DNA from: Rickettsiales bacterium
GTDB lineage: Bacteria; Pseudomonadota; Alphaproteobacteria; Rickettsiales; JABCZZ01
Length of the DNA: 64,000 nt
NCBI GenBank assembly: GCA_035765535.1
Contig: DASTXE010000006.1
Location: 372,001 to 436,000 of the forward strand
Reading direction: 5' to 3'
Below are positions 1,839 to 20,708 of the stretch, piece after piece. The position numbers and the translations under genes were made by a program. Under the pieces are notes generated by a model. It searched no databases, was not told where the DNA came from, and worked only from the letters and a program-made list of their open reading frames with translations. Each line of letters starts with the position of its first letter. Positions within the stretch are counted from its first letter, which is position 1.

Positions 1839-2200
1839 GCTTTCTTATACCTTTCCTCGTTTATCTTTTGCAATCCGCAAGTCCAAAACTTCCATGCCTA
1901 ACATTTTACGAAATCGTTTCCAATACTCTTCGGAGAAATATTTTATTTGTTATACAATGTATTAAGTGGAAAAATCCTATTACACCTACCACATTCACAG
2001 CAATGACTTTTACAAAAAACAAATACTTGTCCGAAAGCATGAAAAAAGATAAAATCAAGTTTTACAATACATTGGAAACTATTTATGGGCCCGGGACCCC
2101 GTAAAGGCCATTTTGTAACACAATCTTCATACAACAAGTTAACGATTTTTTGTATGATAACAGAATGCAATAGTCTCTATTGTCACAAAGGTACAAGTCT
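1839..2200. promoter_or_regulatory. AT-rich divergent intergenic region with inverted repeat
   Basis: This 362-bp spacer separates DUF2269 (leftward) from the orphan gene at 2201 (rightward). It holds an inverted repeat with 8-bp arms, TCATACAA at 2127-2134 and TTGTATGA at 2150-2157, about 45-75 bp before the orphan's ATG, a suitable place for an operator. A short GC-rich patch (GGGCCCGGGACCCC, about 2087-2100) interrupts the AT-rich DNA. A 33-codon open frame at 2003-2104 has no ribosome site and is not called. No confident -35/-10 pair was found. Confidence 0.35.
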
Positions 2201-3904
2201 ATGGGATCTCGGTATGACTGGCAGGACCCGTCCTCGCCAATCAAACAGATAGATGTTACAAAGAACGCTGGCGGATGGCTGCAGGTAGTCATTTACGCCC
2301 CCCAGAACTTCGACAGCAAATTGGCTACGCTTCCGCAATATCTGACAAAGCGCGGATACATCACTTACGGCGATACGGTAGAGGGACAGCAGGTTTATAA
2401 GATTGCAGATTTCGGCAAGAAGGAAGAACCCATCCTGGACGTATTGCGCAATGGCGGCTTCACCGCAGGCGCCCCCAAGAAATCAGATACGCCCGATCAT
2501 ATTCAGGAACTCACAGGCCTGGAAAAGGTGCGTCGTTACAGCGCCAACCTCAGCGGCATCTTTGGTATAGCAGGCCATGCACTGCAGATCGTATACGGTA
2601 AGTTGACCGGCGATAAAAATCGTATCACGGCCGGTGTGCTCTACGGCACTTCCAACATGCTGGGAGCAGCATTTGGCTCCGGCGCAGGCCCCATCCAGTT
2701 TTCGCGTATTACCAGCGGGCTGCATGATTTTCTGCACAAGGAAGGGCTTACCTTTACCGAACCCCTTATCAAAACACCTGAGATTACCTATCGCGAACGT
2801 ACGCTGGGGCACCGTGTATGGGATATGGCAAAAACCCACCCGATCCAGGTATTAAACGCCATCGCACTTCCAGGTAACATTGCATTGCTGCGAAGCGGTC
2901 TCATGGAAGCCAGCCACCGCAAGGACATGCCCCTGCTCAAACGCCCGGGTATTGGCACTGCCGGGGCCGCTGCTGTGGCTGCGACCAGCGCCCTGATTGC
3001 CGTAGTGATACCGGAAGTTTCCGAAGAAAAACTTGACCAGTTCCGCAAGAGAAAAGGCTTCCTTAAATGCCTGAAAGACGGAGAAATCGGCGAGGCCTTC
3101 AAGATCCTGCCCGATTCCGTCTATATGTTCATTGCCCGCAAACCGCTTGCGGTGCAGGGCGCCCTGCTCTTGTCGGATAATGCCCTTATGCTTAAGGACG
3201 CTTACGAAACGTCCAAAAGCTACCAGCAGAACATCAGCAACGGCATGCATCGTGCCGAACCCCCATTAAAATGGGCAATCGCCAGCCTTTACTCCACTTC
3301 CAGCCTGTTCACCGGTATCACGACGGAAAAGCGCCACGAATATTATGAAAGCCCGCAGGCTTATGAAGGGCTATATACACAGGTTGCCAACCTTCTATTG
3401 ACATCCCCCAGAGGCACCACTCCGGAAATTATCAAGCATACGGCTGCTTTTCTTGCTGCCGATCGCGATGTACGCATCCACGAAAATCAGATTGAACAAG
3501 GACTGACAGACAAAATCAGGGAACTCCAGAACAACCCCTGGATAAAATCTGCTCTAAAAGAAGTGGATACTCAGCAGGCCGCAACTCCGCAAACACCTGC
3601 CACCTCCCCGGCAGCGCCAGATGCTTCCCATCATGCGGCAGATAGCAGCACGCATCCTGCTCACCATGAAAATGCCGCCGCACCACAAAATGCACCTGAA
3701 CACGCTGCTGCCGCAACTGCCTCTAAAGGCTATGTGGACAAAGTTCGCCCTCAGGCTCAGGCGACCCCCGGCATGGCGCCGAAAGCAACAAATGATTTAA
3801 AACCCCGCCCCCTGCCCACCACTCCTCCAGAGTCCTGGACCCAGAGAAGAGACTCCGAAACCGCTACAGACCCCGCACTTTCCGGGGCTTCCATACGCGC
3901 TTAA
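2201..3904 (+). CDS. Uncharacterised protein with threefold hydrophobic hairpin repeat
   Basis: I do not recognise this 567-residue protein. The ATG at 2201 is chosen over a TTG at 2180 because AAAGG lies 9 bp upstream of it. The N-terminal domain (about 1-95) is soluble and mixed alpha/beta. Three similar segments follow at about residues 113-163, 213-274 and 313-377. Each has a hydrophobic helix (for example SGIFGIAGHALQIVYG, LNAIALPGNIALL, QGALLLSDNALML) and then a second helix carrying a Thr-Ser pair: LYGTSNML, VAATSALI and LYSTSSLF. A Pro/Ala/His-rich tail (about 460-560) is low complexity. There is no signal peptide. I infer a membrane protein with three helical hairpins, vaguely like PQ-loop or YgjV layouts. 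It is monocistronic. Confidence 0.7.
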   Translation: MGSRYDWQDPSSPIKQIDVTKNAGGWLQVVIYAPQNFDSKLATLPQYLTKRGYITYGDTVEGQQVYKIADFGKKEEPILDVLRNGGFTAGAPKKSDTPDHIQELTGLEKVRRYSANLSGIFGIAGHALQIVYGKLTGDKNRITAGVLYGTSNMLGAAFGSGAGPIQFSRITSGLHDFLHKEGLTFTEPLIKTPEITYRERTLGHRVWDMAKTHPIQVLNAIALPGNIALLRSGLMEASHRKDMPLLKRPGIGTAGAAAVAATSALIAVVIPEVSEEKLDQFRKRKGFLKCLKDGEIGEAFKILPDSVYMFIARKPLAVQGALLLSDNALMLKDAYETSKSYQQNISNGMHRAEPPLKWAIASLYSTSSLFTGITTEKRHEYYESPQAYEGLYTQVANLLLTSPRGTTPEIIKHTAAFLAADRDVRIHENQIEQGLTDKIRELQNNPWIKSALKEVDTQQAATPQTPATSPAAPDASHHAADSSTHPAHHENAAAPQNAPEHAAAATASKGYVDKVRPQAQATPGMAPKATNDLKPRPLPTTPPESWTQRRDSETATDPALSGASIRA

Positions 3905-4085: not shown

Positions 4086-5705
4086 ATGACGAAAGACTCC
4101 AAGGATTGGTGGCGCGGCGCCGTTATCTATCAGATTTACCCCCGCAGCTTTCATGATACGAATAATGACGGTGTAGGCGATCTGCGCGGCATCACGGAAA
4201 AGATGGATTACCTGGCCCAGCTGGGCATTGACGCAATCTGGATTTCACCGTTCTTCAAATCCCCCATGAAGGATTTCGGCTACGACGTTTCCGATTATGA
4301 AGCGGTCGATCCGCTTTTCGGCACGATGGAAGATTTCGACAAAATGATCGAAACCGCCCACGCAAAAGGCATCAAGATCATGATCGACCAGGTAATCAGC
4401 CATACCTCGGATCAGCATGAATGGTTCAAGGAAAGCCGCAGCAGCAAGGATAATCCCAAGGCAGACTGGTATGTCTGGGCAGACGCAAAGCCGGATGGTA
4501 CCGCTCCCAACAACTGGATGTCCTATTTCGGCGGCCCGGCTTGGCAATGGGATACCAGACGCCAGCAATATTATATGCATAACTTCCTGGCCAGCCAGCC
4601 GGACGTAAATTTCCATAATCCACAAGTGCGTCAGGCATTGCTGGATAGCGTTGAATTCTGGCTGAAAAAAGGCGTCGACGGATTCCGCCTCGACACTGTA
4701 GATATGTATTACTGCGATAAGGAACTACGTTCCAACCCGCCGCGTCCCCCCGGTGTGATCGACGGTATTCCGGAGAGCAATCCCTATTCGCGTCAGCAGC
4801 ATATCTATGACCGCAGCCGCCCCGAGAATCTTACCTTCCTCGAAGATTTCCGCAAGCTCACCGACCGCTATGAGAATATCACCACTGTAGGTGAACTCGG
4901 TGCCGAAAACGCGCTCGACCTGATGGCCGATTATACCAAAAAGGATAAGCGCCTGCACATGGCTTATACTTTCCCGCTCTTAGGGGATAAATTCAGCGCT
5001 GCTCATGTGCGCCAGTCCGTTGAATATATGGAAGCCCACATCCAGGATGGCTGGGCCTGCTGGGCGTTCACCAATCACGACATCGTGCGCGTCGTGTCCC
5101 GTTGGGGCAAAGGCAAACATAATGACCGCTTTGCAAAAATGCTTATTGCGCTGATGAGCAGCCTGCGCGGCTCCGTCTGCATGTATCAGGGCGAAGAACT
5201 CGGCCTGACGGAAGCGGATGTGCCGTATGAAAAACTGCAGGATCCGTATGGCATTGAATTCTGGCCGGAATTCAAAGGCCGCGATGGTTGCCGCACCCCC
5301 ATGCCCTGGCAGGCCGACAAACCTAATGCAGGTTTTTCGGTCAAAGAACCGTGGCTGCCTGTGCCGAAGGATCATCTGCCCCTGGCTGCCGACGCACAGG
5401 AAAAGAACAAGGATTCCGTGCTGAATTTTACCCGCCAGTTCTTTAAATGGCGCAAAACGCAACCTGCATTGATGAAAGGCGATATCAAGTTCTATGATGC
5501 GCCGGAACCCATCGTTGCGTTCACTCGCAACTGGGAGGGAAAAACCCTGCTTTGCGTATTCAACCTTGGATTGGAAGAACTTAGCTACAAAATTCCGCTC
5601 AGTGGCACCGTGAAACATGTGCAAATGGACGGTTTTGCTTGCATGCAAGAGAACAATATGCTTCATTTACCGCCCTATTCGGCGTTCTTTGCTACTGTGG
5701 AGTAA
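4086..5705 (+). CDS. aglA: GH13 alpha-glucosidase (AglA-like)
   Basis: A 539-residue cytoplasmic glycoside hydrolase of family 13, likely hydrolysing maltose, isomaltose, sucrose or trehalose-type alpha-glucosides to glucose. The (beta/alpha)8 domain starts WWRGAVIYQIYPRSF; a Ca-site-like DTNNDGVGD lies at 24-32. Conserved region I is DQVISH at 101-106, the form I recall from alphaproteobacterial AglA enzymes. Region II is GFRLDTVD with nucleophile Asp203, region III TTVGEL with acid/base Glu270, and region IV FTNHD with Asp332. No signal peptide is present. The ribosome site is AAGGA. The following MFS gene and the facing ED/galM/glk operon support intracellular disaccharide use. Exact substrate cannot be read from sequence; an oligo-1,6-glucosidase is the alternative. 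Confidence 0.9.
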   Translation: MTKDSKDWWRGAVIYQIYPRSFHDTNNDGVGDLRGITEKMDYLAQLGIDAIWISPFFKSPMKDFGYDVSDYEAVDPLFGTMEDFDKMIETAHAKGIKIMIDQVISHTSDQHEWFKESRSSKDNPKADWYVWADAKPDGTAPNNWMSYFGGPAWQWDTRRQQYYMHNFLASQPDVNFHNPQVRQALLDSVEFWLKKGVDGFRLDTVDMYYCDKELRSNPPRPPGVIDGIPESNPYSRQQHIYDRSRPENLTFLEDFRKLTDRYENITTVGELGAENALDLMADYTKKDKRLHMAYTFPLLGDKFSAAHVRQSVEYMEAHIQDGWACWAFTNHDIVRVVSRWGKGKHNDRFAKMLIALMSSLRGSVCMYQGEELGLTEADVPYEKLQDPYGIEFWPEFKGRDGCRTPMPWQADKPNAGFSVKEPWLPVPKDHLPLAADAQEKNKDSVLNFTRQFFKWRKTQPALMKGDIKFYDAPEPIVAFTRNWEGKTLLCVFNLGLEELSYKIPLSGTVKHVQMDGFACMQENNMLHLPPYSAFFATVE

Positions 5706-5748: not shown

Positions 5749-7041
5749 ATGCATACTGCAAGCACATTGCGTATTAAGTTATCGTTATTTCTGACCTACT
5801 TCGTTTTTGCTGTCCTGATGAACAGCGTCGGGACGGTGATTCTGCAAGTCATCAATAATTACGGTGTCAGCAAGACCGATGCCAGCATTCTGGAAGCCTT
5901 CAAGGATCTGACGATTGCTTCGGTTTCGTTCCTGGTGGCATCGTTCCTCGCACGGTTTGGCTTCCGCAGGGCGATGATGGTGGGGCTGGCGATGGTAACG
6001 CTTGCAACGCTTGCCATGCCGCTGATCCCCTCTTTCTGGACCACTAAACTACTGTTCTTGTCTGTCGGCATCGCTTTTGCCCTGACGAAAGTATCCGTCT
6101 ATTCCACTGTCGGCTTGATTACTGAAGATGCCAGGGAGCATGCTGGCTTCATGAACACTATCGAAGGAATCTTCATGATCGGGGTTCTTTCCGGTTATTG
6201 GCTGTTCAGCGCGTTTATTGACTCCACAAATCCGCATTCTCAAAGCTGGTTGAATGTCTACTGGATCATCGCCGCAGTCTGTGCCTTCAACATCGTAGCG
6301 CTCTATGTCTCCCCCTGCGATGAATCTAACGCCCGCGTCGATGGCTCCAAAGTTTCCGATGATTTCCGCGGCATGCTGCGCCTGATGGCACGTCCTATGG
6401 TCTATATGTTCGTGATTTCGATATTCCTTTACGTACTGATTGAGCAGAGCATCTGCACCTGGCTACCCACCTTCAATAACCAGATTTTAAAGCTTCCTTC
6501 CGCTATGAGCGTACAAATGACCAGCATCTTTGCCGCATGCCTGGCGCTGGGACGTCTGGGCGCAGGTGTAGTGATGCGCCGCATGCACTGGCATCCCGTG
6601 CTGACAGCCTGCCTGCTGGCCATGGGAGTACTGGTATTACTCACCCTTCCCCTCACGCATGGCATTACCGAGAACCCGGCTCTGACATGGTGGACTGCAC
6701 CACCCGCCGCGTATATTTTCCCATTGATCGGATTGTTCATGGCACCGATTTACCCCGCTCTCAGCTCCGTGATGCTCAGCGCCCTGCCGAAACACCAGCA
6801 CTCGGCTATGTGCGGCCTGATCGTAATTTTCTCGGCATTGGGCGGAACGATCGGTTCGCGTATTACCGGCTACACGTTCGACCATTTCAGTGGCCAGACG
6901 GCTTTCTATCTGTCCCTGATTCCTATGGGGATTATCATGATCTCGTTATTCTTCTTCAAGCGCGAAACCGATAAAATCATCGGCACGGAGCAGTTGGATG
7001 AAGAGCGGAAGGAAAACGCTAACTCGCTGGCCGCAGCTTAA
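5749..7041 (+). CDS. MFS transporter, probably for a sugar
   Basis: A 430-residue polytopic protein with the twelve-helix pattern of the major facilitator superfamily. The loop between helices 2 and 3 reads ARFGFRRAMMVG, a degenerate form of the MFS A-motif (G-x3-D-R-x-G-R-R). The two halves are joined by a polar loop near residues 185-205 (SPCDESNARVDGSKVSDDF). It lies 43 bp after the glucosidase on the same strand, so import of the enzyme's substrate is the natural inference, though the family alone does not give specificity. Its last 4 bp overlap the end of the convergent cupin gene, leaving no room for a terminator. Confidence 0.85.
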   Translation: MHTASTLRIKLSLFLTYFVFAVLMNSVGTVILQVINNYGVSKTDASILEAFKDLTIASVSFLVASFLARFGFRRAMMVGLAMVTLATLAMPLIPSFWTTKLLFLSVGIAFALTKVSVYSTVGLITEDAREHAGFMNTIEGIFMIGVLSGYWLFSAFIDSTNPHSQSWLNVYWIIAAVCAFNIVALYVSPCDESNARVDGSKVSDDFRGMLRLMARPMVYMFVISIFLYVLIEQSICTWLPTFNNQILKLPSAMSVQMTSIFAACLALGRLGAGVVMRRMHWHPVLTACLLAMGVLVLLTLPLTHGITENPALTWWTAPPAAYIFPLIGLFMAPIYPALSSVMLSALPKHQHSAMCGLIVIFSALGGTIGSRITGYTFDHFSGQTAFYLSLIPMGIIMISLFFFKRETDKIIGTEQLDEERKENANSLAAA

Positions 7042-7399: not shown

Positions 7400-8452
7400 C
7401 TAGAAATGGGAAAACCGGTATATCGTCTCGGAGGCGCGAGCCTGCCCGGGGCGCAAAATCGTGGATGGGAACTGCGGCTTATTGGGGGAGTCCGGAAAAT
7501 GCTGGGTCTCCAGGCACAGGCCGCTACGCTTTGTATAAGAAGTTTTCCCCGACTTGCTGGCAAAGCCTTCGCGTATATGCTGGCCCGTATAAAACTGCAT
7601 GCCCGGCTCTGTCGTCAGCACTTCCAGCACGCGTCCACTTGAAGGCTCTTCCACACGCGCAGCCAGCACGGCACCGTTGCCCCCTGCAGGCTTATCCAGC
7701 ACGAAATTAATATCGAACCCTCCGCCAAGCTCCATCTGCGGATGCCGCTCGCTCAACGCATCCCCTATAGGACGTATATGCCGCAGATCATAGGGAGTTC
7801 CTTCCACGGTCACGATCTCCCCTGTCGGGATCATATCCGCATTGAGCGGGGTGTAAGCTGCAGCGAATATCTGTATCCTGTGTCCGTCGACCGTACCGCA
7901 CCCCTCGCCTGCAAGATTAAAATAGGTATGGTTGGTGAGGTTAAGCGGAGTCGCCTTGTCAGTGGTTGCATAATATTGAATCCGCACGGCATTATCTTCG
8001 GTCAGCGTATAGGTAACACGCACGGAGACATTACCGGGATAGCCTTCTTCTCCGTCACGCGAATCATAGGTAAAAGTGATAGTGCTATCGCTACGAGCCA
8101 CCATATTCCACAGCACGCGATTAAAACCGGTATGGCCGCCATGCTGGTGATTAGGGGGTTTGTTCACAGTCAGTGCATAAGACACGCCGTCGAGCCCGAA
8201 TTTTCCGCCCGCAATGCGGTTGCAGAATCGCCCGATCGTCCCTCCGAAAGAAGGATGTTCCCTGTTTTTATAATCCTGCGGATTCCTGAACCCAAGCGCT
8301 ACGTCCGCCACCACGCCGTTTTTATCGGGAACACAGATGCAGGTAATCGCCGCGCCGAAATTGGTAATGCCAACCTGCATTCCGTGAGCATTCTTGAGCT
8401 CATATAAGGTAATTGTATTGTCTTCGGAAACCGCCTTCTGCACTGAACTCAT
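7400..8452 (-). CDS. galM: Aldose 1-epimerase (galactose mutarotase)
   Basis: A 350-residue galactose-mutarotase-fold enzyme that interconverts alpha and beta anomers of glucose or galactose. Motifs visible are GGTIGRFCNRIAGGKF, the substrate-binding HQHGG loop, the catalytic His region NLTNHTYFNLAG and the catalytic Glu region GLCLETQHFPDSPN near the C-terminus. Length is normal. GAGGGACT before the ATG is a clear ribosome site. It lies 26 bp after eda. In this operon it would speed conversion of the alpha-glucose released by the glucosidase before glucokinase acts. Confidence 0.93.
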   Translation of the reverse strand: MSSVQKAVSEDNTITLYELKNAHGMQVGITNFGAAITCICVPDKNGVVADVALGFRNPQDYKNREHPSFGGTIGRFCNRIAGGKFGLDGVSYALTVNKPPNHQHGGHTGFNRVLWNMVARSDSTITFTYDSRDGEEGYPGNVSVRVTYTLTEDNAVRIQYYATTDKATPLNLTNHTYFNLAGEGCGTVDGHRIQIFAAAYTPLNADMIPTGEIVTVEGTPYDLRHIRPIGDALSERHPQMELGGGFDINFVLDKPAGGNGAVLAARVEEPSSGRVLEVLTTEPGMQFYTGQHIREGFASKSGKTSYTKRSGLCLETQHFPDSPNKPQFPSTILRPGQARASETIYRFSHF

Positions 8453-8478
8453 AGTCCCTCTTTCCGAAATGTTCCGCT

Positions 8479-9108
8479 TTACCTTTTAACTGCAGCAAGC
8501 GCCTCTTTAACCAGCATGGTGATCTCGCCCCATTTCCCTTCCCGGATCGGCTGGGTGGGAACAATCCACGAACCGCCCACGCATAACACGTTAGGCTGTC
8601 CCAGATATTCATTCATATTCGCCTGCGTGATGCCGCCTGTGGGGCAGAACTTCACATTGCCGAACAGCGCAGCGAAATTCTTGAGCATCCCTACCCCACC
8701 AGCCAGCGCCGCCGGAAAGAATTTCAGGCGGTCAAAACCATGCTGCATCGCGAGCAGCGCTTCGGATGTCGTGGAGATACCCGGAATATACGGCACACCG
8801 CATTGTTTTCCCGCCGTAAGAAGCGCATCCGTAATACCGGGACTGATGATGAACTGCGCTCCCACATCCTTTACCCTGGCAAAGCCATCTGCGCTGGTAA
8901 TGGTTCCCGCTCCCACCACCATATTTTTTCGCTCTTGAGCCAGCAGCTTGATCGCATCGAGCGCCGCACCCGTGCGCAGTGTCACTTCCATCGTCTTGAT
9001 GCCACCTTCCGCCAGTGCATCCGCCAGCGGCAGCGCATCTTCCGCCCGCTCCAGCGTAATGACGGGAATAATCGGTCCAAGGGTAAGAATATCGTGTGCT
9101 GCGCTCAT
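8479..9108 (-). CDS. eda: 2-keto-3-deoxy-6-phosphogluconate aldolase
   Basis: Class I aldolase that splits KDPG into pyruvate and glyceraldehyde-3-phosphate, the last dedicated step of the ED pathway. The start at 9108 (MSAAHDILTLGPIIPVI) is preferred over a start 19 codons upstream, because that extension would overlap the glk coding end and does not resemble the family N-terminus. In the 209-residue product the catalytic residues are Glu41 and Arg45 (MEVTLRTGAA) and the Schiff-base Lys129 (RLKFFPA). It starts 4 bp after the glk stop, implying translational coupling. Confidence 0.95.
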   Translation of the reverse strand: MSAAHDILTLGPIIPVITLERAEDALPLADALAEGGIKTMEVTLRTGAALDAIKLLAQERKNMVVGAGTITSADGFARVKDVGAQFIISPGITDALLTAGKQCGVPYIPGISTTSEALLAMQHGFDRLKFFPAALAGGVGMLKNFAALFGNVKFCPTGGITQANMNEYLGQPNVLCVGGSWIVPTQPIREGKWGEITMLVKEALAAVKR

Positions 9109-9112
9109 AAGC

Positions 9113-10081
9113 TCACTTTCGGTTATTGAGAATTGTCGCCGCACCAACAAGTGCCGTCTGAACACTGTCGGTTATCACATAAAGCGGTATCTCCGAGACA
9201 TAATCCTTAAAGCGTCCTTTAGCCTCAAAACGACCGCGCAAACGGCTTTTATGCACCAGATCGCCGAGTTTCGGAACGATCCCGCCACCGATGTAAATGC
9301 CCCCCATCGCGCCGAGCTGTAATGCCCAATCTCCGGCCACAGTGCCAAGCACACCGAGGAACAGCTTCACCACTTCACCGCATGTGGATTGCGGATCTTC
9401 AATCGCCTCGATGGTAATATCGGATGCTTTGAGCGCACGCGGTTTTTCGCCCTTGATATGACTTAGCGATCGGTACAGGAACTCAATCCCCGCGCCGGAA
9501 AGTATGCGTTCGACTGAAACGCGCTCGCCATATTCCTTCCATCCAAGGCGCATGATCTCGGCTTCCACCTCATTGACCGGTGCAAAACCGATATGTCCGC
9601 CTTCACCCTGCAGCGCCGTCCACTGTTCGCCGCCCCAGATAAGCGCGGAAACGCCGAACCCGGTTCCGGCCCCCATGACACCGATCGGCATATGTTCTTT
9701 CGGACTACCACCGCCTACAGCAAAATACTGCTCTGGAGTGAGTTCAGGCACGCCCATGGCAAGCGCCGTGAAATCATTTACGAATACTACTCTCCTGAGC
9801 CCAAGCGCGTCTTTGATCGCTTTCTGCGAAAATTCCCAGTCGCAGTTCGTGAGCTTTACCGTATCGCCCGTGATAGGACACGCAAGCGCAAGGCATGCAC
9901 TGTCGACCTTCGGATTACCCTGCTCCCGAAGAAACGCCTTCAGCGCATCCACTGTGCTGCCGTAATCGCTATTGATACAGTTATAAATGCTTTCGGATAC
10001 GAGCTTACCGTCTTCCACAAGCGCAAAGCGCGCATTGGTTCCGCCTACATCTCCAACGAATGAAATCTGTTTATTAGTCAT
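9113..10081 (-). CDS. glk: Glucokinase
   Basis: A 322-residue ATP-dependent glucokinase of the bacterial Glk (non-ROK) type, phosphorylating free glucose to glucose-6-phosphate. The ATP-binding phosphate-1 motif is [12 protein letters not shown] (10-21). The catalytic base is Asp103 in [21 protein letters not shown] and [10 protein letters not shown] are the sugar and adenosine region motifs. Its start overlaps the edd stop by 8 bp and it is followed at 4 bp by eda. Since no phosphotransferase genes are seen, phosphorylation of glucose freed in the cytoplasm is its likely job here. Confidence 0.95.
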
Positions 10082-11897
10082 GACTGGTCAACACAAATGA
10101 GGCGCCGTCTTCCGCGCCGGTGACAACATGACGTGCGCCGGAAAACAGCTCACGTCCAAGCCCATGGTGATAGTGACTGATATCAGGGCTGGCGGGTTCG
10201 CGCGCGGCAAGCGTCGCTTCATCCACCTTTACTTCCAAAATTCCTTTCTCAGCATCGAGCAGGATAATATCGCCGTCGCGCACTTTTGCAAGCGGACCGC
10301 CACGCAGGCACTCCGGTACGATATGGATCGCCGCAGGCACCTTGCCTGAGGCACCGGACATACGCCCGTCCGTGACCAGCGCCACCTTGAAACCGAGTCC
10401 CTGCAGCACGCTGAGCGTCGGCGTCAGCTTATGCAGCTCCGGCATACCGTTCGCACGCGGCCCCTGGAATGCAACGACTGCAACGAAATCCCCATGCAGA
10501 TCGCCTTTTTTGAATGCTTCAAGCAGCGCTTCCTGGCTAAAAAATACCCTCGCAGGTGCTTCCACTACGCGATGCTCCGGCTTTACGGCCGAAACCTTGA
10601 TAACAGAACGGCCAAGATTGCCTTTTAGCACACGCAAACCGCCCTCCGGGCTGAACGGCTCATCTGCCGGGCGCAGCACATCTTTGTTGAGGCTTGTGTC
10701 ATTTACCCGCTGCCATTCTATCTTATCTTCAACAAGCAGCGCTTCGGTGCGGTAATGCTCCAGCCCTTTGCCCATGACCGTCGTCACATCATCATTGAGC
10801 AGACCATTTTTCAACAGGCTGTCGATCATGAAACCGAGACCACCTGCCGCATGGAAATGGTTCACATCCGCTTCGCCGTTAGGGTAGACGCGCGCAAGCA
10901 GCGGCACCACATGCGAAAGTTCGGCGAAATCATCCCAGTCGATCACGATGCCAGCTGCACGCGCGATGGCGATCAGGTGAATCGTATGGTTCGTCGAACC
11001 GCCGGTTGCCACAAGGCCGATAATGCCGTTGACGATCGCTTTTTCGTCCAGCATCTGCGCAAGCGGCAGATACTGCCCCGCCAGTGCTGAATTCTTCATA
11101 GCCTGTACCGTCGCCGCCCTCGTGAATGCGTCGCGCAGCTTCGTGCCGGGATTCACAAACGAACTTCCGGGGAGCTGCAGCCCCATGACTTCCATGAGCA
11201 TCTGGTTGCTGTTCGCTGTGCCGTAGAACGTACAGGTTCCCGGCGAATGGTAGGATTTCGCTTCCGCGTCCAGCAATTCTTCCTTGGTCGCCTTGCCCTG
11301 CGCATAAAGCTCACGCACGCGCGCTTTTTCCTTATTCGGCAGGCCCGAAGGCATTGGCCCGCCCGGCACGAACACCACTGGCAGATGGCCGAAGCTCAAC
11401 GCACCGATCAAAAGCCCCGGCACGATCTTGTCGCAAATTCCCAGGCACAAAGCCGCATCGAACATATTATGCGAAAGCGCCACCGCCGTGGACATGGCTA
11501 TTACGTCACGGCTGAAGAGCGAAAGTTCCATCCCCGGCTCGCCCTGCGTGACACCGTCACACATCGCAGGCACACCGCCCGCAAACTGCGCCACTGCCCC
11601 TACCCTGTGCGCTTCCTGTTTGATGATTGCGGGATACGCTTCATAAGGCTGGTGCGCCGAAAGCATGTCGTTATAGGCAGAAACAATGGCAATATTGGGC
11701 TGCTGGCCATTGCGCAGCGCTGCCTTATCTTCTGCACCGCATCCTGCAAAACCATGCGCAAGATTGCCACAGGAAAGCGTGGAGCGCTTGGGCCATTTGC
11801 CTGCCGCTTCCTGCATACGCGAAAGGTATGCTTCACGCGTCGTGCGGCTACGTTCAATGATTCTTTTGGTTACATTCAGAATTACGGGATGCGTCAT
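10074..11897 (-). CDS. edd: 6-phosphogluconate dehydratase
   Basis: An iron-sulfur dehydratase of the IlvD/Edd family converting 6-phosphogluconate to KDPG, the defining ED enzyme. The start at 11897 ([17 protein letters not shown]) is preceded by GAGGAAG and gives 607 residues, the normal Edd length; an upstream in-frame start would add 21 unrelated residues overlapping pgl. Signature segments are [39 protein letters not shown] and CDKIVPG (the Cys regions that bind the cluster), and the C-terminal [17 protein letters not shown]. It sits 10 bp after pgl. Confidence 0.96.
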
Positions 11898-11907
11898 AAC
11901 TTCCTCT

Positions 11908-12594
11908 TCAAGCCGCCCAGTACACTTCGAGCGGCACCTTGTCCTGCTGTACGATAGCACGCACCGGAAGCGTGAGGCAAGAGCCGGGTTTCTGCGCTTC
12001 TTCGTACAATGTTTTCTTCTTCGCGCCGGTAATGTGCAATATCAGCTTACGGCAGTTCAGCAGCGCCGAAAGTGTCTGCGTCATACGCGGGTGCGGCGCA
12101 TAGGATGGCGGGTTAATGGCAGCACAGCGATGCGGATTATTAAGCTCCAGCGCTTGTGCAAGACCTTCCGTTTCCGGGAACAGGGAAGCAGTATGCCCGT
12201 CTTCTCCCATACCCAGAATCACCACATCGTAAGGAGCCTGCATCACTGCCAGCGCCTTTTCCACCTCTGCAACACCTTCAGCAGGCGTTGCAGCCTTATT
12301 CTTAAGACTCACAAAATGCGCACCATTTGTAAGCAGCTGTTCGCGCACCATACGCTCGTTGCTGTCTGCTTCATTCGGTTCCACCCAGCGCTCATCCGCC
12401 AGCGTAATCCATATCTTATCCCACGCAAGCGCATGCTGCTTCAGCGCCGCAAAAAACGGCTTGGGCGTGCTGCCGCCGGAGACGACAAGACTTGCCTTGC
12501 CGCGCTCACGTATCGCTGATGATAGAGCCTTCGCCGTATCTTCCGCCAATTGTATAGCGGCAGCATCCGACGAGGGAAATGAATGAAACGCCAT
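11908..12594 (-). CDS. pgl: 6-phosphogluconolactonase
   Basis: A 228-residue DevB-type lactonase of the glucosamine-6-phosphate isomerase fold, hydrolysing 6-phosphogluconolactone made by Zwf. Motifs include [14 protein letters not shown] near residue 40, [20 protein letters not shown] and [16 protein letters not shown], all characteristic of the family. It starts 11 bp after the zwf stop. The short spacing on both sides fits one transcript from zwf. Confidence 0.94.
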
Positions 12595-12605
12595 TACTTC
12601 TAAAC

Positions 12606-14072
12606 CTATTCTGACTCTTGCCAGCGGCGTCCGTCGCGCGCCATAAGCGCACTTGCGTCCGCAGGCCCCCAGCTGCCCGCAATATAGGGCTTGGGTTTCT
12701 GGTTATTTTCTTCCCAGCCATTGAGGATGCTTTCCGCCCAAACCCATGCAGCTTCCACTTCGTCGCTGCGCATGAAGAGGGTTGGATTGCCGCGCACCAC
12801 GTCCATCAGCAGACGCTCATAAGCATCCGGCGTGCGCTCCTCGAATTCTTCCGAAAGGCTCAGGTTCAGATGCACCGGCTTCAGGCGGTATCCACCCGGT
12901 CCCGGCACTTTGGTAATCACTTCAAGCTTGATGCTTTCGTCCGGCTGCAGGCGGATGATCAACTTGTTCGTATGCGGCTCAGTAGCCTGATCCGGGAAAA
13001 GCTGGTGCGGAACGGGACGGAACTGCACCACGATTTCCGAAAAACGCTCCGGCAGACGCTTGCCGGTACGCAGGTAAAACGGCACACCGGACCAGCGCCA
13101 ATTATCCACATGCGCCTTAACTGCCACGAATGTTTCCGTATCGCTGCTTTTCTGACCGAGATCTTCCACATAGCCGCCGACCGGCTTTCCGCCGGAAGCG
13201 CCTGCGCGGTATTGCCCGCGGATCGTATCGCGCACAACATCCGCCTTAGTGAACAGGCGCAGCGAACGCAACACCTTCAGCTTTTCATCGCGCAGAATAT
13301 CCGGCTCCAGACGCGGCGGCGGCTCCATTGCAATGAGACACAGCAGCTGCAGCAGATGGTTCTGCACCATATCGCGCAAAGCGCCGTATTTGTCATAGTA
13401 ACGCGCACGGCTTTCCACACCGAGGCTTTCCGCCACCGTGATCTGCACATGGTCGATCGCCGTGCTGTTCCACACTTTTTCGAACAGATTATTGGCAAAA
13501 CGCAGGATCATCAGGTTCTGCACCGTTTCCTTGCCCAGATAATGGTCGATACGGTAAACTTGTCGTTCCTCGAAATATTTCAGCACTTCATTGTTAATGG
13601 CACGGAACGATTCCAGATCGTGACCAATAGGCTTTTCCAGCACCACGCGCGCATCCGGCGTCACAAGGCCCGCATTATGCAGATTACGGCAGATTGCACC
13701 AAATACATCCGGCGGAGTCGAAAGATAGAATACCCGCACCTGATTAGCATCCTTGGCAAAAAATGCCGCCAGCTGGGCATATGCCTTGACGTCATCCGCA
13801 TCTACCGCCGCGTAATGGATATGCCTGGAGAAACGGTTCCATACGCCCGCGTCGAAATCCGCGGAAGCGACATGCTCCTCGCACGCCTTCTTCACCATCT
13901 CCACATACTGGTCGAGCGCCGCGCGGCCGATACCCAGAATGCGGCTGTTTTCAGGAAGCTGGCCGTCACGGTAGCGGTAATATAGGCCCGGGAGGATTTT
14001 ACGCAGCGCCAGATCGCCATTGCCGCCGAAAATAACGATATCGGTCGGGGAAAGAGGAGGTACAGAAGACAT
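12606..14072 (-). CDS. zwf: Glucose-6-phosphate 1-dehydrogenase
   Basis: First enzyme of the ED route, oxidising glucose-6-phosphate to the lactone with NADP+ or NAD+. The 488-residue product has the dinucleotide-binding loop GGNGDLA at residues 16-22 (Asn in place of the commoner Ser/Thr), VVLEKPIGHDL, and the substrate/catalytic motif RIDHYLGKE with His177. Length is standard. As the first gene it should carry the operon promoter in the 190-bp gap before ridA, but I see no convincing -35/-10 pair there. Confidence 0.96.
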   Translation of the reverse strand: MSSVPPLSPTDIVIFGGNGDLALRKILPGLYYRYRDGQLPENSRILGIGRAALDQYVEMVKKACEEHVASADFDAGVWNRFSRHIHYAAVDADDVKAYAQLAAFFAKDANQVRVFYLSTPPDVFGAICRNLHNAGLVTPDARVVLEKPIGHDLESFRAINNEVLKYFEERQVYRIDHYLGKETVQNLMILRFANNLFEKVWNSTAIDHVQITVAESLGVESRARYYDKYGALRDMVQNHLLQLLCLIAMEPPPRLEPDILRDEKLKVLRSLRLFTKADVVRDTIRGQYRAGASGGKPVGGYVEDLGQKSSDTETFVAVKAHVDNWRWSGVPFYLRTGKRLPERFSEIVVQFRPVPHQLFPDQATEPHTNKLIIRLQPDESIKLEVITKVPGPGGYRLKPVHLNLSLSEEFEERTPDAYERLLMDVVRGNPTLFMRSDEVEAAWVWAESILNGWEENNQKPKPYIAGSWGPADASALMARDGRRWQESE

Positions 14073-18452: not shown

Positions 18453-19556
18453 ATGCGAATCCAGCCTTCCGACCTGCAAAAACTGACTGCAGACCCATCC
18501 GCGGATGTTCGCGTGGATGTCACGGAAAAAATCGCTTCTGGATTCAAAAACGGCGAATTCACTATCAGTGAAAAGAAAATTGCTACCGAAATCTTCCGCC
18601 TTCTCGTCAACGATATTGAAAAACGCGTACGCATCGCATTAAGCAAACAACTGGCAGACAGCATGGACGCACCGCATGACGTGGTGCTGAAGCTTGCCAA
18701 TGACGTCAAGGAAGTGGCCCTCCCCGTACTCCAGCATTCTTTCGTGCTTACGGAAGGCGATCTGATCGACATTACCCACCATTCTCAGGATACGGAAGTC
18801 ATGTCGGCCATCGCACGGCGCGATATCGTTTCACGGGAGTTGTCGGCAGCACTGCTGAAAAAATCAGACATGACGGTGGTGGAAACGCTCTTAAGCAATA
18901 AGAACGCCAGCATAGACGACCGTGGCCTCAATGAGATCTATACAGGCTATTCCTCCAATATCTCCATGCTGGAGCTGATGGCAAAGCGTGGCGGCATCCC
19001 GGCAACGCTTGCGGAAAAGCTGTTCGTCGTCGTATCTGACGAGGTCAAGAAGATCCTGACCAGGCAATATAATATCTCATTCCAGGTCGCAAGCGACTCC
19101 GCCCAGTATGCACGCGAGCTGGCCACGCTTGGCCTGATCGACGACTCAATGCAGAAAATGGAGATGGAAGACCTTGTCTCCCACCTCGACAAAAACGGAA
19201 GACTAAGCTTCTCGCTTATTATCCGTTCGCTCTGTCTGGGTAATATACGCTTCTTTGAGTACGCCATGGCGAAACTCGCCGGCATCTCCAACATGAATGC
19301 CCGCATCCTGATACTCGACCGCGAGAACGGTTTTGAAAAACTTTATGAGAAAACCGGCCTGCCGCCGGAAATGTTCAAAGCCATACGCTATCTGCTGACC
19401 ATCGCGCTCGAGGAAACGGCGCTCGGCCGCTACCACCGCAACGATTTCCGCCAGCGCCTGGCGTCCCGCATTTCAAAGGATAGCAACGCCACCAAGATCG
19501 AATATATGGACTATATAGTCCTGCTGATTCAGAACAACATGGTTGATAATGGATAA
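18453..19556 (+). CDS. DUF2336 protein, first of tandem pair
   Basis: A 367-residue all-helical protein of the DUF2336 family, common in alphaproteobacteria and without an established function. The N-terminal two thirds look like HEAT-type helical repeats: VRVDVTEKIAS, DIEKRVRIALSKQLADS, DVKEVALPVLQHS. The C-terminal part contains LSFSLIIRSLCLGNIRFFEYAMAKLAGI and NARILILDRENGFEKLYEKTGLP. No membrane segment or signal peptide. GAGGGG lies 10 bp before the ATG. It is 60 bp after greA and directly precedes a paralogue aligned along its whole length. Confidence 0.85.
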   Translation: MRIQPSDLQKLTADPSADVRVDVTEKIASGFKNGEFTISEKKIATEIFRLLVNDIEKRVRIALSKQLADSMDAPHDVVLKLANDVKEVALPVLQHSFVLTEGDLIDITHHSQDTEVMSAIARRDIVSRELSAALLKKSDMTVVETLLSNKNASIDDRGLNEIYTGYSSNISMLELMAKRGGIPATLAEKLFVVVSDEVKKILTRQYNISFQVASDSAQYARELATLGLIDDSMQKMEMEDLVSHLDKNGRLSFSLIIRSLCLGNIRFFEYAMAKLAGISNMNARILILDRENGFEKLYEKTGLPPEMFKAIRYLLTIALEETALGRYHRNDFRQRLASRISKDSNATKIEYMDYIVLLIQNNMVDNG

Positions 19557-19610
19557 ATAGTTATGTATGCAGCAACTTATACCGCCACCGAAGCAGGGAT
19601 GCTCAGCACC

Positions 19611-20708
19611 ATGATACTCAGTGACCAGGATATAGATCGCCTGCTGAACGAACAGACCCCGTCTGTGCGTGTCGATCTGGCGGATAAAATCGCAGGCTCG
19701 CACCTGAACCGCCAGTACAGTCTCCACGATTTCGCCATCGCCGAACAGGTCATGCGTATTCTGGTTAAGGATACAGAAGTCAAGGTGCGTGAGGCACTGG
19801 CAACCCGCCTCAAGGAAAATCCTTATATCCCAAGGGACATTATTCTCGCCCTGTCGCACGATGTGGAATCCGTCGCCTTGCCCGTGCTCGAACACTCCCC
19901 GCTCCTGTCGGATGCGGAACTGATCTCCGTCATTGTAACCTGCAAGAGCGTAAGCAAGCAGTCGGCCATCGCAATGCGCAAAGCTGTCTCTAAGGATGTA
20001 TCCGTCGCGCTGGTCTCCACCCATAATTCCGAAGTGGTAGAAAAACTCGCTAAAAACCACAATGCGGACATTCCTGCGGAAGCTTATCACGAAATTATAC
20101 GCGACCACGGCAAGAACCAGATCATTATGAAAGCCGTGGCGGAACGCCCCAACCTGCCTGTCACGATCGTGGAAAAAGTCATTAGCATGGTGTCGGATTC
20201 GCTGGCCCGCGACATGCGTGCGAAATACGATATCGACCAGTCCGTGCTGGCGCTGGAAGCAGACAAGACACGCGAAGTCGCCACCCTGATGCTGGTGGAC
20301 GGCAACGCCGAGAAGCAGGAAGTGGAAAAACTGGTCGAGCAGTTACAGGCTTACGGCAGGCTGACCCCATCCATCATCCTGACATCATTGTGCCGCGGTA
20401 ACCTGTATTTCTTCGAAACCAGTCTCGCCCGCCTCTCCAGTATTCCCGTGCGTAATGCGCAGCTCCTGATCCATGACAAAGGCGGCCTCGGTTTCAAGGC
20501 GCTTTATAACAAGGCAGGCCTGCCGGACAAATTCTTCGCCGCCTGCAAAGTGCTGCTGGAAGTGGTCGCCATGATCCGGCGCGCGCAGCCTTCCCTGAAA
20601 GGAACGGATTACTCGAACCAGGTCATCCACAACCTGCTGGCCAAGACCGCCGGACAGAATGTCGACAACCTTTCCTACATTATCGCCCTGATCCGCCAGG
20701 CCGCTTAA
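19611..20708 (+). CDS. DUF2336 protein, second of tandem pair
   Basis: A 365-residue paralogue of the preceding gene. The start at 19611 (MILSDQDIDRLLNEQ) is chosen because it puts VRVD at residue 19, exactly as in the first copy; an earlier ATG at 19563 would add 16 residues. Shared landmarks are DVESVALPVLEHS, ARDMRAKYDIDQ, LTPSIILTSLCRGNLYFFETSLARLSSI and NAQLLIHDKGGLGFKALYNKAGLP. The two genes are one transcription unit. Divergence is high outside the landmarks, so the duplication is old. Function unknown; scaffolding or regulation by helical repeats is a guess. Confidence 0.83.
   Translation: MILSDQDIDRLLNEQTPSVRVDLADKIAGSHLNRQYSLHDFAIAEQVMRILVKDTEVKVREALATRLKENPYIPRDIILALSHDVESVALPVLEHSPLLSDAELISVIVTCKSVSKQSAIAMRKAVSKDVSVALVSTHNSEVVEKLAKNHNADIPAEAYHEIIRDHGKNQIIMKAVAERPNLPVTIVEKVISMVSDSLARDMRAKYDIDQSVLALEADKTREVATLMLVDGNAEKQEVEKLVEQLQAYGRLTPSIILTSLCRGNLYFFETSLARLSSIPVRNAQLLIHDKGGLGFKALYNKAGLPDKFFAACKVLLEVVAMIRRAQPSLKGTDYSNQVIHNLLAKTAGQNVDNLSYIIALIRQAA

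Follow-up and report, generated by a model that had tools for sequence, protein, structure and literature searches.

SLC5-STAC-histidine kinases (CbrA) and other transceptor or accessory proteins are known as transporter-coupled modules (PMC7096432, PMC7918813), and descriptions exist of basal Rickettsiales whose gene content points to an extracellular or free-living life (PMC9352585, PMC10847448). The genome considered here (2.6 Mb, 6 contigs), which probably belongs to the Rickettsiales and from which we analyzed a stretch of 64,000 nucleotides (hereafter, the window), encodes two VirB4 homologues, and flagellar and TonB-system genes were recognized by eye among its open reading frames (ORFs), in line with the content described for these basal members. 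Near the beginning of the window lies the gene under study, a real ORF with an ATG at 2201; its closest orthologue (L007) has the same methionine as start, in agreement with this assignment (Table 1).

In a first-pass annotation, the 567 amino acid product had been described as an orphan with a pattern known from no named family. Searches of Pfam, NCBIfam, PHROGs and PDB sequences returned no match to the protein core. The orphan status, however, is refuted: a whole-genome search revealed five members in the genome of the window protein itself, and, within the same order, at least one member was present in 52 of the 344 genomes, spread over 33 of 134 genera (at most four candidates were scored per genome in this survey, copy numbers being therefore lower bounds). 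The window protein looks like an orphan from annotated databases because Pfam, NCBIfam and the PDB hold no sequence relative. The carriers belong to large-genome lineages, the family being absent from the small-genome families of the order, and outside the order, among 385 sampled genomes of the class, only three gave matches, all of them weak and to small proteins. A whole-collection scan found nothing with the window protein as query, and 16 named loci when the subfamily linked to amino-acid permeases (APC, see below) was used instead. This multi-copy family is hitherto undescribed and bears no database name. One of its members, the fifth copy of the same genome (L074 7829–9436, G000:C4), lacks the N-terminal domain and is fused in frame to a C-terminal GNAT acetyltransferase (PF13302).

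Table 1. Location of the gene, of the predicted parts of its product and of the neighbouring genes within the window
Feature	Position	Strand	Basis
CDS, 567 aa, three-hairpin family member of the 'sugar' subfamily	2201..3904	+	ORF, genome search, alignment, tree
N-terminal alpha/beta domain, residues 1–97	2201..2491	+	AlphaFold2, alignment
Hairpin 1, residues 106–158	2516..2674	+	AlphaFold2, profile–profile comparison
Hairpin 2, residues 214–269	2840..3007	+	AlphaFold2, profile–profile comparison
Hairpin 3, residues 315–373	3143..3319	+	AlphaFold2, profile–profile comparison, alignment
C-terminal helical domain, residues 380–461	3338..3583	+	AlphaFold2, alignment
Ala/Pro/His/Thr-rich tail, predicted disordered	3587..3901	+	AlphaFold2
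GH13 alpha-glucosidase-type enzyme, next gene, 181 bp downstream	4086..5705	+	Pfam PF00128 (3e-133)
MFS transporter	5749..7041	+	Pfam PF07690
Sugar cluster: aldose epimerase, KDPG aldolase, glucokinase, edd, pgl, zwf (Entner-Doudoroff pathway)	7400..14072	-	zwf by Pfam, others read from sequence

The AlphaFold2 model of the window protein (mean pLDDT 81.7, pTM 0.72, obtained with a 34-sequence alignment) predicts three consecutive helix pairs, at residues 106–136/139–158, 214–238/251–269 and 315–347/353–373, the last of which is opened by Pro315, an invariant residue in the alignment. In addition, the N-domain carries the family motif YxWxxxSxI..., the C-domain ends near a conserved NPW motif, and the tail is predicted to be disordered from about residue 477, with pLDDT values below 50 over most of 477–567. 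Three homologous hairpins in order, linkers and an NPW-ended C-domain, by which the family is recognized, are present in the window protein. The first-pass annotation had anticipated much of this anatomy, placing a threefold hairpin at about residues 113–163, 213–274 and 313–377 between a soluble N-terminal domain and a His/Pro-rich tail; the model and the profile scores given below agree with the hairpins, and the model likewise contains the N-domain and a low-complexity tail of the proposed character. With the whole model as query, Foldseek retrieved nothing from the PDB at E ≤ 0.001 and nothing significant from viral models, so that, at the sensitivity used, no solved structure matched the triplicated-hairpin fold. 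The N-domain weakly resembles the eIF1 fold (4bts, probability 0.96, E 0.42), a resemblance on which we place no reading.

The threefold repeat is observed directly in profile–profile comparisons, in which the three hairpin segments match one another pairwise with probabilities of 93.7, 91.2 and 76.7%. None of 200 column shuffles equalled the real HMM–HMM score for any hairpin pair (33.5, 32.2 and 26.3, compared to best shuffled scores of 16.0, 12.8 and 13.6). Reversed controls of the hairpin profiles scored 17.3, 14.5 and 13.8 (probability at most 15.9%), and the N-domain and C-domain controls remained below 1% probability. In contrast, single-sequence repeat detection left two of the three pairs no better than shuffled (shuffle fractions 0.86, 0.29 and 0.01); the hairpin repeat becomes clear only at the family level. 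The Thr-Ser pairs (150/151, 262/263 and 366/367) had been singled out as a mark of each repeat: they do share one position once the repeats are aligned, but they are not a feature of the family, being found at the three places in 2, 1 and 1 of 34 members, respectively. Family-wide, G, S or T mostly fill the serine column of repeat 1; in 27 of 34 members this column holds G in repeat 2, and it holds A in repeat 3 (again 27 of 34), the conserved property at this site being a small residue (G/A/S) and Thr-Ser being peculiar to the window protein.

Analysis of the gene neighbourhoods established a subfamily-specific linkage to transporter and catabolic genes. When 46 members are placed on a tree, neighbour type follows subfamily, with 9 label changes compared to 22.8 for shuffled labels (0/200 shuffles as low as 9). 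The clade of the window protein is characterized by carbohydrate uptake and catabolism genes (L078–L083, L088, L134, L136 and the window, with a transaldolase in L133); gene order and orientation vary among these loci, and the carbohydrate theme is constant. An ABC sugar-binding protein and permease adjoin the family gene in L079 and L081, the latter also containing a GH13 gene; an ABC binding protein, GH65 and MFS gene stand beside it in the sister locus L078, which holds a close homologue of the window MFS transporter; GH13 and MFS genes are found in L080 and L134, together with glycogen synthase in L134; and GH65 (L082) or zwf-pgl genes (L083, L088, L136) are neighbours elsewhere. In 12 loci of a second clade, one of them in the genome analyzed here, the gene immediately upstream encodes an APC amino-acid permease on the same strand, and in a third clade an O-methyltransferase precedes the family gene in 6 loci. 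In 13 loci, members of a clade devoid of the N-domain have as direct neighbour PutA (proline-catabolic), a divergent Na+/alanine symporter or both, PutA being on the same strand at a gap of 25–78 bp where directly adjacent; relatives of this group include single cases beside a nucleobase permease and an RND pump. Representatives of the partner families were confirmed by Pfam.

Of the genes immediately next to a family member (distance 1), 42% belong to the listed partner types; this share falls to 8.6% at distance 2 and to 3% from distance 4 onwards. As we compiled the list of partners with the neighbours already known, the enrichment p-value is optimistic, and we prefer the clade-wise consistency as evidence. 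Beyond the shared partner, wider flanks are conserved in subsets of loci only, and 17 of 60 loci have no listed partner within two genes; the own-genome copies L072 and L073, for example, stand among housekeeping genes. This loyalty of each subfamily to its neighbours is a new result, tying a nameless, widespread paralogous family, branch by branch, to specific nutrient systems.

Other arrangements were noted in the course of this analysis. In L087 (7067–8518) a family member is situated directly upstream of mraZ- and rsmH-looking genes, at the start of a cell-division cluster. Three tandem look-alike genes (438, 360 and 348 aa), possibly representing another hairpin family, directly precede the family member in L091 (6091–9540), and in the window itself two adjacent genes in tandem (18453–20708) encode repeat-like products, 367 and 381 aa long, that look alike. 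Upstream of the gene under study, TTGGAAACNATTT occurs at 1911–1923 (-) and 2072–2084 (+), both intergenic and in opposite orientation, these being the only two exact sites in the window; as the related genes of other genomes lack such a site in their upstream regions, we rejected the pair as an operator. Promoter and terminator scans remained at chance level.

The six helices of the window protein have little hydrophobic character (maximum 19-residue Kyte-Doolittle values, with family means of 0.86–1.27), and hairpin 2b is its only segment above 1.6, compared to 13 such segments in the neighbouring MFS protein and none in soluble enzymes. Moreover, the hairpin turns carry as much charge as the linkers, and a soluble six-helix core is therefore possible. 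Small relatives of 175–250 aa (L062–L064, L066 and L067), from other alphaproteobacterial families, mainly f147, also match the family profile. They contain the same three hairpins but neither the N- nor the C-domain, the f147 set being colinear with all three hairpins (hhalign 96.7%, E 3e-10). Their hydrophobicity is higher, with averages of 1.5–1.9 in five of the six helices, and they obey the positive-inside rule with an N-in/C-in topology of six transmembrane segments (6-TM). The AlphaFold model of one of them shows six main helices (pLDDT 91, pTM 0.84), and as for the window protein, its Foldseek search gave no PDB match at E ≤ 0.001. It follows that the core either derives from a 6-TM protein or is sister to one, and the large family proteins, set between marginal hydrophobicity and transmembrane relatives, may still cross the membrane. 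In L064, a locus of an alphaproteobacterial genome outside the order, three genes for small six-helix relatives stand in tandem (640–1161, 1407–2030 and 2030–2620).

Marginal hydrophobicity and charged turns would also be expected of a soluble or peripheral cytoplasmic six-helix adaptor, such as a regulator or an enzyme scaffold for the catabolic genes, acting without any membrane role, and the purely cytosolic enzymes among the neighbours (zwf, transaldolase, PutA and the O-methyltransferase) are in accordance with it. We nevertheless consider such an adaptor unlikely, given that its core is homologous to clear 6-TM proteins and that several subfamilies adjoin integral transporters.

Taken together, these results suggest a model, to which we assign a probability of about 0.45, in which each subfamily is the dedicated partner, either scaffold or regulator, of one nutrient-uptake/catabolism module, its core being derived from, or sister to, the small 6-TM proteins. 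The triplicated core would have acquired a soluble domain at its N-terminus, a helical one at its C-terminus and a disordered tail; it would lie next to the cognate transporter, either embedded in the inner membrane or attached to it, whereas the cytoplasmic N-, C- and tail regions could hold or regulate this transporter and/or the first catabolic enzymes. Under this model, the window copy would serve alpha-glucoside uptake and breakdown via GH13 and the Entner-Doudoroff pathway. A partner protein is the simplest account of a shared core with exchangeable extra domains, of the enzyme fusion and of branches that each keep to a single transporter or pathway; the weak hydrophobicity, the loci devoid of a listed partner and the O-methyltransferase, which is no transporter, count against it. 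The first-pass annotation had already considered a membrane scaffold, which comes close to this reading, with the membrane insertion of the window protein being putative.

The threefold hairpin repeat, the uptake gene context, and the compact 6-TM appearance of the small relatives, with conserved D/N/H in their first helices, would also suit a protein that is itself a solute carrier, the six helices forming a transport path around a pseudo-threefold axis and the neighbouring transporters providing parallel routes for the same nutrient. This appears improbable, more so than the soluble adaptor: most loci already have a full transporter beside the family gene, the helices show low hydrophobicity, neither a known carrier fold nor carrier motifs were matched, and the GNAT fusion and long soluble domains would be unusual for a carrier.

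Multi-copy, divergent and tail-bearing proteins are also what one would expect of effectors in Rickettsiales-like bacteria, raising the question of a secreted type IV secretion (T4SS) effector with membrane-inserting hairpins. The two VirB4 homologues, the lineage restriction and the disordered C-terminal tail of this multi-copy family are compatible with this idea, as is the report that no verified effectors were found for the T4SS of basal Rickettsiales (PMC9352585). We downgraded it on account of the metabolic synteny: that these genes keep their place, in different families, next to transporters and catabolic enzymes of the cell itself fits a housekeeping role, and the absence of the family from the small-genome families of the order further argues against secretion, rendering this alternative very improbable. 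In decreasing fit to the combined data, the possible alternatives are thus the cytosolic adaptor, the carrier and the T4SS effector.

Extending the dedicated-partner model, these proteins might constitute a new class of transporter partners, a three-hairpin membrane scaffold whose duplicated copies would have been allotted to different systems (sugar ABC/MFS, APC, AGCS-PutA, nucleobase, efflux), building uptake-catabolism assemblies in large-genome lineages of the order and being lost from, or never present in, small-genome, presumably host-restricted ones. We regard this generalization as tentative and rather doubtful. If the family were indeed a general transporter partner, it would offer a testable handle on the feeding of probably free-living Rickettsiales relatives, and also on what their host-restricted relatives are missing.

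Among known systems, PQ-loop, SWEET and SemiSWEET proteins share with the family an internal helical repeat and, in the window subfamily, a link to sugar, but their repeats are three-helix bundles, whereas here two-helix hairpins occur three times together with long soluble domains. The PQ-loop and MtN3 Pfam models do not match the family, NCBIfam gave a single weak match (SemiSWEET_1, 15.2 bits compared to a cut-off of 200), no SWEET or SemiSWEET is found among the best 50 Foldseek PDB matches, and a PQ motif is absent from the hairpins of the window protein and, among the 34 members, present in the core of just 12. Membership in this group is therefore not supported, and neither is membership in YgjV, for which no Pfam match was obtained at E ≤ 10 (window protein) or 0.1 (relatives). 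The mitochondrial carrier family also consists of three two-helix repeats; however, the threefold Px[DE]xx[KR] motif occurs in 0 of 34 family members, neither Pfam nor structural matches were found, and the protein is bacterial. Overall, the carrier-like layout suggested by the first-pass annotation, whether of the PQ-loop/SWEET/YgjV or of the mitochondrial-carrier kind, finds no support in Pfam, NCBIfam, Foldseek PDB searches or motif scans. By analogy only, the family is akin to the SLC5-STAC-histidine kinases (CbrA), in which a non-transporter module is kept with nutrient transporters. It shows no sequence relation to them and has no kinase or receiver domain; in contrast to these kinases, it partners several unrelated transporter families, and it does so by gene neighbourhood rather than by fusion.
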